From Deltaproteobacteria bacterium (GTDB lineage: Bacteria; Desulfobacterota; Syntrophorhabdia; Syntrophorhabdales; Syntrophorhabdaceae), in assembly GCA_029777945.1 (NCBI GenBank), contig JAKORG010000017.1:1-62314 (forward strand): a stretch of 62,314 bases of DNA, read 5' to 3'. The position numbers were made by a program, and so were the translations under genes. Positions 1 through 25,050 of the stretch are shown piece by piece (within the stretch, counting starts at the first letter, position 1; every line of letters begins with the position of its first letter). The notes below the pieces were generated by a model. It searched no databases. It saw only the letters and a program-made list of their open reading frames with translations, and was not told the origin of the DNA.

Positions 1-571
1 GTAAGGTAGGCAGAATCCATATTCGTACCCTTATGAGAAAGATGGGCATAAAAGCCATTTACAAGAAACCCCCGTCTTCCTAAGCCCCATCCCGGGCATA
101 AGATATATCCTTAGGATCTTGACATAACACAAACCAATACCGTGTGGTGCTAAGATATAACATACATTCCCATGGCAAAGGGATTCTGCTATCTTGTGGC
201 TATCATGGAGTGGGCAAGCAAAAAAGTATTATCATCAAATACCCTTGATGTATCGTTTTGCATAGAAGCCCTTGAAGAGGCAATACTTAAATACAAAACA
301 CCGGATATATTCAATACAGATCAGGGGAGCCAGTTCACTTCCGATGATTTTACCATCATTATCAGTATGGATGGAAGGGGTCGCTGGAGGGACAATATAT
401 TTATAGAACGTCTCTGGAAAACCATCAAATAAAGGCATATGAATCAATAAATCATGAAAAAAAGAGCTTAAAGAGTTTTTTGAAAGATATAATATACGAA
501 GGCCTCACCAGGGCTTAGATTACAGAACACCGGATTATGGAACATTACCAGAGGTTAAGGATGCAGTATGA
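1..571 (+). pseudogene. IS3-family transposase (orfB) remnant
   Basis: This is a decayed DDE integrase-type transposase of the IS3 family, cut off at its 5' side by the window edge. Recognisable blocks appear in order but in different frames: TLMRKMGIKAIYKK near 30-75, RLPKPHPGHKIYP near 77-112, TNTVWC then DITYIP near 137-170, the second catalytic Asp in NTDQGSQFTS near 313-342, the catalytic Glu region FIERLWKTIK at 400-429, and ERYNIRRPHQGLDYRTPD near 480-535. An in-frame TAA (151-153) stands where the residue before the first catalytic Asp should be, and small deletions remove residues after ASKKVL and after TSDDF. At least three frame changes are needed to read it, so it cannot make active transposase. 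It marks a former insertion; no terminal inverted repeats could be assigned. Confidence 0.85.
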
Positions 572-7623: not shown

Positions 7624-7654
7624 TATGTTAATAATTAATCGAAGAGGAGTAAAA

Positions 7655-7885
7655 ATGGATCCTAAAGAAGAGGTAAAGAATGCCCTTAGGGAACTCAAAC
7701 CCAAGCTCGAAGAACTTGCAGAAGGCTATGCAGAATTCGAAGACATTGATATAAAAAAGGGGATGGTTAAGGTAAAACTAATAGGCGGAAAGCTCATGTG
7801 ATGCGGTGATTTCGCCCTCAGTCTGTGGGTGGAAAAATTGTTAAAGGAACGATTCCCGTGGTTAAAAGAGGTGGTTGAAATTTGA
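7655..7885 (+). CDS. NifU-like C-terminal-domain protein, candidate selenoprotein (in-frame UGA at 7799-7801)
   Basis: Read with UGA as selenocysteine at codon 49, this gene gives 76 residues, the usual size of a stand-alone NifU C-terminal (Nfu) domain. Before the UGA, residues 7-48 follow the Nfu pattern: VKNALRELKPKLEE, then IKKGMVKVKLIGG, matching V-x-x-x-L-x-x-L-R-P and G-x-V-x-V-x-L-x-G-A. After the UGA the same frame stays open for 27 codons with the family's ending, VEKLLKERFPWLKEVVEI. The usual CxxC iron-sulfur motif is replaced by a Sec-Cys pair (Leu-Met-Sec-Cys-Gly) at about the second cysteine. A hairpin with bSECIS geometry follows. The ATG at 7655 has an AGAGGAG site, so in-frame codons further upstream are not coding. 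The gene stands alone between two minus-strand genes. Alternatives: a 48-residue truncated protein or a nonsense-mutated relic. SelABC genes are not in this window. Confidence 0.72.
7813..7831 (+). promoter_or_regulatory. Candidate bacterial SECIS hairpin
   Basis: CGCCC (7813-7817) pairs with GGGTG (7827-7831); a U-U mismatch and a C-G pair then close an AGTCT pentaloop (7820-7824). The loop guanine is the 20th base after the UGA. From memory, the E. coli fdhF element has a CAGGUCUG apical loop at nearly the same distance; here it is CAGUCUG. Spacing, stem and loop G all fit SelB binding. This is by-eye folding only. Confidence 0.62.
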
Positions 7886-7937: not shown

Positions 7938-8942
7938 TCATAAAAAGGCCTTAATCCTTTCTCTCATCTCTTCATATGGGAAAAGCCTGCTAAAGTCTAT
8001 AAGGCCTGCAAGGGCCCTTGAATAGGCCCTGACCCCTGTTTCTTCAAGGATGGATACAGGGTTTAATCCTCCTATTACAATTGCTCCTACTCTGCCCTCG
8101 CTCACTGGTATATCAAGGAAGCTCTGACCAGGCATACCAACGCCTACAAGCCCGCCAAGCCCTATCCTTTTTAGCCTATCGGCAAGTTGAATTACCTTAT
8201 CGCGGCTATCAGCAGGGAACTCCCTGAAGCTTGCACCTATTCTTCCATTACCTGTCTTTATGGCACCCATATAGTTTGTCATACCGCTTCTGATAAAGAT
8301 CTCAAGAGGGTCTATGCTTGTCCCATCGTACATGATAATCTCAACAAATCTAACAGGTTTTTTATCCTTTATTTCAAGCAGGCCCCCAAACCTTGATGTG
8401 GTAGGTATGCCATGCTTTAAAAGCACCCCATTTATGGTTATTGAGCAGACAGTCCCTATACCGATCATCCCCTCCGGGATATTTATGTGTCCCAAATTCT
8501 CTCCAGGAGACAGAAAGGTCAAAAGGTTTCCCATGGCAAATCCATCGGCATATACCTTTTCAATGTATTCTATATTTTTCGCAAACTGGTGGGGGTCAAC
8601 GATGGTCACATTTATCACAACGGTGCCGGAACTAGTGTTTATATCAAAACTCATCATATAGCTCATCTGGTCAATCTTTGCAGATAGAAAACCCACTTTT
8701 TCTATTACCCATGATGAGTCTAATTCGCCGATACCCTTTTCTGTTATTGAACTGCCCTTTTTGCCATTACTTGACACATAACCTTCCTCTTCCATCTTTT
8801 TTAGATATAATCGAACTGTCCTTTCACTTATGTCGTAACCATTTAATTCGAGCCTCTCTGCTATTTTTCCACTCGTTAAAGGTCTGTCAGAATCCCTTAA
8901 AACATTAAGTATTAAAAGTTCCTTCTTTTTGTTTTTATCCAT
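7938..8942 (-). CDS. NrpR-like transcriptional repressor (winged helix plus NrpR regulatory domain)
   Basis: A 334-residue regulator with an N-terminal winged-helix domain (about 1-75: LTSGKIAERLELNGYDISERTVRLYLKKMEEEGYV) followed by a single NrpR regulatory domain (formerly DUF128). Recognisable blocks are TFLSPGENLGHINIPEGMIGIGTVCSIT-like residues near 158-187, GIPTTSRFGGLLEI, and GLGGLVGVGMPG near 275-286. In methanogens NrpR represses nitrogen-assimilation genes and is released by 2-oxoglutarate. The gene is transcribed away from an FMN-type glutamate synthase, and the intergenic region holds palindromes that fit its operators. It therefore probably controls ammonia assimilation and its own synthesis. 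The DNA-binding half is single, as in NrpRI-type proteins. Confidence 0.85.
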   Translation of the reverse strand: MDKNKKKELLILNVLRDSDRPLTSGKIAERLELNGYDISERTVRLYLKKMEEEGYVSSNGKKGSSITEKGIGELDSSWVIEKVGFLSAKIDQMSYMMSFDINTSSGTVVINVTIVDPHQFAKNIEYIEKVYADGFAMGNLLTFLSPGENLGHINIPEGMIGIGTVCSITINGVLLKHGIPTTSRFGGLLEIKDKKPVRFVEIIMYDGTSIDPLEIFIRSGMTNYMGAIKTGNGRIGASFREFPADSRDKVIQLADRLKRIGLGGLVGVGMPGQSFLDIPVSEGRVGAIVIGGLNPVSILEETGVRAYSRALAGLIDFSRLFPYEEMRERIKAFL

Positions 8943-24892: not shown

Positions 24893-25050
24893 TAGTCGAG
24901 CAGCTGACTTTCAATGGAAGTGGAGTGTAAATCTTCCGCTGTCCCGCAACTGTGATGGCTTATGGATTGTGCACGGCTTTTTGCCAGTCACTACCTTAAA
25001 TGGTGGGAAGACGCACAATTCCCAATGCCTAAGCCAGGAAACTTTGGGTC
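24893..25050 (+). ncRNA. Cobalamin (B12) riboswitch
   Basis: The class signatures appear in order: GGAAGTGGAGTGTAAATCTT (24915-24934), then CCGCTGTCCCGCAACTGTGA (24935-24954), GCCAGTCACTACC (24983-24995), GTGGGAAGACG, and the closing AAGCCAGGAAAC (25032-25043). No terminator hairpin is evident between it and the downstream gene, so control is probably translational. It governs the TonB-dependent receptor at 25180, which marks that receptor as a corrinoid transporter. Confidence 0.92.

Follow-up and report, generated by a model that had tools for sequence, protein, structure and literature searches.

A predicted selenoprotein family of the Nfu fold with a conserved in-frame UGA codon and a frozen downstream RNA core

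The window, which is the whole stretch of 62,314 nucleotides that was analysed, carries a short gene interrupted by an in-frame UGA and followed, immediately 3′ of this codon, by a hairpin resembling a selenocysteine insertion element (Table 1). When the UGA is read as selenocysteine (Sec), the translation is MDPKEEVKNALRELKPKLEELAEGYAEFEDIDIKKGMVKVKLIGGKLM-U-CGDFALSLWVEKLLKERFPWLKEVVEI. The Pfam NifU profile (PF01106) was aligned with residues 7–74 of this product, covering all 67 model positions and spanning the UGA, with a score of 26.7–26.8 bits that lies marginally below the curated cut-off of 27. The profile also matched all of the 17 members found first of the family here called Sec-Nfu (best E-value 2.3e-08), while a search of the same 17 proteins against NCBIfam retrieved no model matching the family, the HesB-like selenoprotein TIGR01911 not being among the matches. 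An earlier note on this DNA had proposed that the frame is open through the UGA and that both sides belong to one Nfu domain of 76 residues, and this was borne out by the profile coverage and by the homologues described below. The gene stands alone, between a divergent gene for an FAD-linked oxidase and a convergent gene for a regulator of the NrpR type, a family known best from archaea. A promoter scan gave no more matches than were obtained with shuffled sequences. Elsewhere in the window, a cobalamin riboswitch was detected, and an integrase-like fragment containing DQGSQFTS was recognized by eye near the contig edge.

Table 1. Positions of the features described in the text (window coordinates unless another locus is named)
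Feature	Position	Strand	Remarks
Sec-containing Nfu-domain gene	7655..7885	+	76 codons with UGA as predicted Sec; orthologues in 16 more genomes of the order and 3 distant ones
Start codon ATG; terminal stop TGA	7655; 7883-7885	+	Read from the sequence
Ribosome-binding site, purine-rich, GAAGAGGAG	7641..7649	+	Ahead of the ATG; read directly off the sequence, AGGAG a few nt upstream
In-frame UGA, predicted Sec49	7799..7801	+	Matches second Cys of the Nfu CxxC; UGA in 20/20 homologues
Cys50, partner thiol of the UC form	7802..7804	+	Invariant in the 17 UC-form members
SECIS-like hairpin core: GCCC, U, C, loop AGUCU (7820-7824), G, U, GGGU	7814..7830	+	Core pairs kept in 20/20
Lower stem of the hairpin, window genome	7810-7813/7831-7834	+	
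NrpR-type regulator (NRD1_2 + winged helix)	7938-8942	-	Convergent with the Sec-Nfu gene
Integrase-like fragment	172-432	+	By eye
Cobalamin riboswitch	24916-25042	+	Rfam, 55 bits
Tandem Sec-less copy (L100)	G004:C102 3115-3327	-	Lacks both the TGA and a Cys at this site; RNA core degraded
CU-form loci with FMN-reductase/LMW-phosphatase fusion	L103 12196-16159; L101 7121-8325		
Radical SAM gene, AmrS-like by eye	L083 6976-7989; L085 4017-5030		12-21 nt upstream of Sec-Nfu

Homologues were sought first in 60 relatives and then in 46 genomes of the order, in 395 genomes of the phylum and in a scan of 84,980 species. Sec-Nfu was found in 17 of the 46 order genomes, the gene always having a single TGA and always at the same codon, and three further carriers of a variant form (G125, G253 and G274) were present among the phylum genomes; searches of the classes around these distant members yielded no additional carriers, and viral contigs scanned with a mixed profile gave nothing. 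The homologous codon is UGA in 20/20 homologues, and TAA, TAG or a Cys codon occurs there in 0/20, a conservation far beyond chance. Homologues ending at codon 48, or lacking the UGA, had been named beforehand as observations that would speak against recoding; the relatives keep both the UGA and the sequence downstream of it. The scan of 84,980 species, which used two peptide patterns, one of them representing a Cys-Cys (CC) form, returned 13 loci, all with UGA and none with Cys at the site. These loci come from metagenome-assembled genomes labelled Deltaproteobacteria, Syntrophorhabdales, Syntrophorhabdaceae, Syntrophorhabdus, Syntrophobacterales or Syntrophaceae, one being labelled only as an uncultured bacterium. 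The scan depends on a conserved seed, so that rarer or diverged members may escape it, and G253 and G274 are not listed among its results.

The sequence following the UGA behaves as a coding region. Counts by the NG86 method over the approximately 19 codons located 3′ of the UGA and outside the RNA core gave 0.02–0.22 non-synonymous changes per site against 0.15–0.91 synonymous changes per site, the former being lower in every pair of relatives tried; for example, the window gene and its relative L010 differ by 3 non-synonymous changes over 46 sites and by 10 synonymous changes over 11 sites. Since amino-acid changes are few and silent changes are many, the continuation is coding, and the protein segment after the UGA is under purifying selection.

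The hairpin described in the earlier note, with a loop G at +20 after the UGA, is indeed present, and its core is shared by the entire family. The consensus GCCCUC-RGU-YUGUGGG follows the UGA in 20/20 members, with the loop R-G-U-Y-U in all of them, at a distance from UGA to loop of 18 nt in the 17 members of the UC form and of 21 nt in the three members of the CU form (both forms are defined below). The published bacterial SECIS (bSECIS) model requires a loop N1-G-U-N-N2 and a spacing of 16–37 nt (PMC13188914), and the core loop and spacing of Sec-Nfu conform to it in 20/20 members. The 47 nt starting at the UGA in the window gene fold at –14.6 kcal/mol, a value equalled by none of 200 shuffles (z = –2.94), and for the short hairpin a value of –7.5 kcal/mol is attained by 15 of the 20 members, with –10.8 kcal/mol for the window gene. 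The complete hairpin is not the minimum-energy fold in every member, the exceptions being L012, L013, L021 and L025; the lower stem is missing in some members, other folds compete, and only the core is constant. Covariation is scarce, being restricted to positions 12/30 and 13/29, with changes on both sides only at 12/30. Because of this weak covariation and of the competing folds, the RNA argument rests on the synonymous sites of the core, which are frozen: Ala+5 is encoded by GCC and Leu+6 by CTC in 17/17 UC members, and the same codons are used in the three CU members, whereas other invariant Gly, Leu and Pro columns, with four- or six-fold degenerate codons, use 4–6 codons. The probability of the observed core codons was estimated at ~1e-13, a rough figure that takes codon usage from the remainder of these genes and counts no more than six lineages as independent. 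The invariance of the encoded A-L-(S/G)-L-W could not be used as evidence of protein function, because the RNA alone would hold it.

Two arrangements of the Sec/Cys pair were recognized. The UC form, in 17 members, presents the motif GG(K/R)(L/I)xUCG with invariant U and C, and the CU form, in the three distant members, presents GGRLCU(G/A)GPD, which is one residue longer and in which the Cys precedes the Sec. The alignment with ordinary Nfu proteins, as well as the profile alignment to the structure 2z51, placed the Sec column on the second Cys of CxxC, the invariant C49 column. The former idea of a Sec-Cys pair in place of CxxC therefore stands for the Sec, which occupies the second Cys position, and requires correction for its partner: the first Cys is replaced by K or R in Sec-Nfu, and the Cys adjacent to the Sec is new. 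A Cys at codon 49, which the earlier note had proposed to look for in orthologues, was encountered in the aligned ordinary Nfu paralogues, and no direct orthologue with CC at the Sec site was found in the 84,980-species scan, its CC pattern included, so that the evidence for a Sec/Cys pair comes from these paralogues only. Matches free of TGA were considered as possible Cys orthologues and rejected, since the ones inspected have the usual GACxxCP motif and group apart in the tree.

Ordinary Nfu coexists with Sec-Nfu. The window genome encodes elsewhere an Nfu with the motif GACGSCP, and a second NifU-type match without the stop was found in 16 of the 17 order carriers, the exception being G043, a genome that is 75% complete. 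In the tree, CxxC proteins on one side and Sec proteins plus one tandem copy on the other are split by a branch with 100/100 support; most internal nodes among the Sec proteins are poorly resolved, owing to the shortness of the sequence. The Sec-only branch very probably split off from ordinary CxxC Nfu, both persisting in the same genomes. The tandem copy lies about 450 nt upstream of the Sec gene of G004; it reads RGILIANGINACSLW at the motif, with the core degraded to GCCTGCAGCCTGTGG (GCC TGC AGC CTG TGG). In this copy, which provides a natural control, the loss of the Sec was accompanied by that of its partner Cys and of the RNA core.

The product of Sec decoding would be a single-domain protein with the Nfu (NifU C-terminal) fold. 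An AlphaFold2 model, obtained with 43 window and locus sequences, presents the alpha-beta-beta-alpha-beta fold of Nfu (order H-E-E-H-E) at a pLDDT of 90, the block with the Sec loop being its least certain part. The best solved match was CnfU (2z51; Z 10.9, rmsd 2.1, 71 residues aligned), followed by NFU1 (2m5o; Z 8.8) and by further ferredoxin-like domains at Z ~7, so that only the top two stand out.

The genome of the window (2.4 Mb, 102 contigs, 97% complete) contains the machinery for Sec insertion that the earlier note had proposed to look for: selA (589 bits), selB (359) and selD (377), all above curated cut-offs, and a tRNA-Sec (69.9 bits, cut-off 47). It has two selD genes, one with a Sec codon of its own (KGAG-U-ASKIGPGDL) and one without. 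A survey of the 20 carriers, performed with strict cut-offs on draft genomes, detected both selB and tRNA-Sec in 12, only selB in four, only tRNA-Sec in two and neither at these cut-offs in two, G005 (96% complete) and G274 (68% complete). As selB occurs in 40 of the 46 order genomes, a test of its co-absence with Sec-Nfu is uninformative.

From the recoding-type conservation, the frozen RNA element, the Sec machinery, the Nfu homology and the paralogy, all of them computed, the UGA is almost certainly decoded as Sec, presumably by SelB and tRNA-Sec under the direction of the hairpin, and the gene very probably encodes a true selenoprotein of the Nfu fold, belonging to a Sec-only family apart from CxxC Nfu. 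Machinery, homologue length and UGA conservation, the three points on which the earlier interpretation could have failed, were examined, and on each of them it was supported. That the UGA is instead a genuine stop, yielding a peptide of 48 residues, with a downstream frame that is open by chance or is a relic, is very improbable: nothing but the standard code is in favour of this reading, and it is opposed by a continuation that is under purifying selection and completes the Nfu domain, by the occurrence of the same UGA ahead of that continuation in 20 genomes and by the Sec machinery of the genome. Decoding by other means, as Trp through suppression or by a frameshift bypassing the codon, is extremely improbable; no point in its support was found, and it is contradicted by a SECIS core of published form with proper spacing, by the complete Sec machinery and by the homologous residue of ordinary Nfu, which is Cys and not Trp.

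The genomic surroundings differ between the two forms. A constant neighbour of the UC-form genes was sought and none was found; at two loci, a radical SAM gene precedes the Sec-Nfu gene at short distance. In both lineages whose contigs show the region, the CU-form gene lies directly behind a gene for an FMN-reductase/LMW-phosphatase fusion. In G125, the CU gene comes after sufC, a SufBD-core gene (sufB) and DUF166, the arrangement read at locus L103, and ahead of a histidine kinase with a rubrerythrin domain. In G253, the CU gene is followed by a small unknown gene, a ferritin-like gene and a rubrerythrin-like frame, and beyond other genes by a KatG-type peroxidase (the sufC, ferritin and KatG assignments were made partly by eye). 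The neighbourhood of the CU form may thus point to the handling of iron, Fe-S and oxidants. DUF166 is itself listed as a selenoprotein family (PMC13188914).

As to function, the likeliest role, to which we give about an even chance, would be that of a redox derivative of Nfu, in which the vicinal Sec/Cys pair would form a reversible selenenylsulfide and an Fe-S carrier would have evolved into a small reductase or redox carrier, which might help to repair iron and Fe-S proteins or to protect them. The different chemistry envisaged in the earlier note, redox or selenium handling in place of Fe-S scaffolding, is likewise conjectural. A selenenylsulfide appears likelier than a fixed cluster site because the CxxC spacing is gone and the partner Cys may lie on either side of the Sec; the redox role is also suggested by a Sec that stays fixed while its partner switches sides between branches, and by the fusion, ferritin-like, rubrerythrin-type and peroxidase genes near the CU form. 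Against it, sufC and sufB in the gene run of one CU genome may speak equally for Fe-S work, and the UC-form genes have no constant neighbour. Ordinary Nfu binds its cluster with two CxxC motifs, one per protomer, and Sec-Nfu might by analogy be a selenium-ligated Fe-S carrier in which Sec and Cys from each of two protomers bind the cluster. We regard this as the main competing reading of the function, and a doubtful one: the Nfu fold, the Sec at a former ligand position and the sufC and sufB genes upstream in L103 are in its favour, whereas the CxxC spacing is lost, the second ligand would shift from +1 to –1 between branches, which is unusual for a fixed cluster site, and an ordinary Nfu is retained in the same genomes. 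It is unlikely that Sec-Nfu would be the first Fe-S carrier in whose Nfu-type site Sec itself ligates the cluster, with the ordinary sulfur-based carrier working alongside. The handling of selenium (selenide to SelD) or of soft metals (Hg, As, Cu) through the vicinal pair is quite improbable; such a role would agree with the LMW-phosphatase (arsenate-reductase-like) domain beside the CU form and with the CU motifs listed in the predicted metal-related selenoproteins SaoL, HgcA and MbdU (PMC13188914), and it is opposed by gene neighbourhoods that, at the loci read, connect it neither with selD nor with clear metal-resistance genes and by the carriers being a minority of the Sec users of the order (17/46 against 40/46 with selB).

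Among the 119 families of prokaryotic selenoproteins catalogued in 2026 there is no NifU/Nfu entry (PMC13188914), and the main texts of selenoproteome papers, PMC9312934, PMC12013277, PMC5029168 and PMC8318568 among them, do not mention NifU/Nfu. A literature search for NifU/Nfu selenoproteins, covering the main texts of openly accessible papers, returned none on the subject. Sec-Nfu is therefore apparently an undescribed family, new to the bacterial selenoproteome, in which a domain of Fe-S biogenesis has been preserved exclusively with Sec, both in one order and outside it, and standard gene callers would truncate or overlook genes of this kind. Being small and easily made, the protein lends itself to asking whether Sec is able to take the place of a Cys that ligates a cluster, or whether its presence converts a carrier to redox work, and the shift of the partner Cys across the Sec constitutes a natural experiment on this question of ligand versus redox.

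Compared with the Nfu/NifU C-terminal carriers (PF01106; CnfU 2z51, NFU1 2m5o), Sec-Nfu has the same fold, length and domain order, with the Sec at the second Cys; unlike canonical Nfu, it has Sec-Cys or Cys-Sec instead of CxxC and has lost the DGGD motif (LAEG). A vicinal Cys-Sec pair forming a selenenylsulfide is found in the GCUG tail of mammalian thioredoxin reductase, which differs from Sec-Nfu in being a flavoenzyme with a flexible C-terminal tail and an unrelated fold. Vicinal Cys-Sec pairs (CU motifs) also occur in the CopZ-type 2Fe-2S protein form 2, SaoL, HgcA and KCU-star, whose domains in the same catalogue are others, none of them NifU/Nfu (PMC13188914). The HesB-like selenoprotein (TIGR01911), like Sec-Nfu, arose from a family of Fe-S biogenesis carriers, and differs from it in being an A-type carrier of a separate family.
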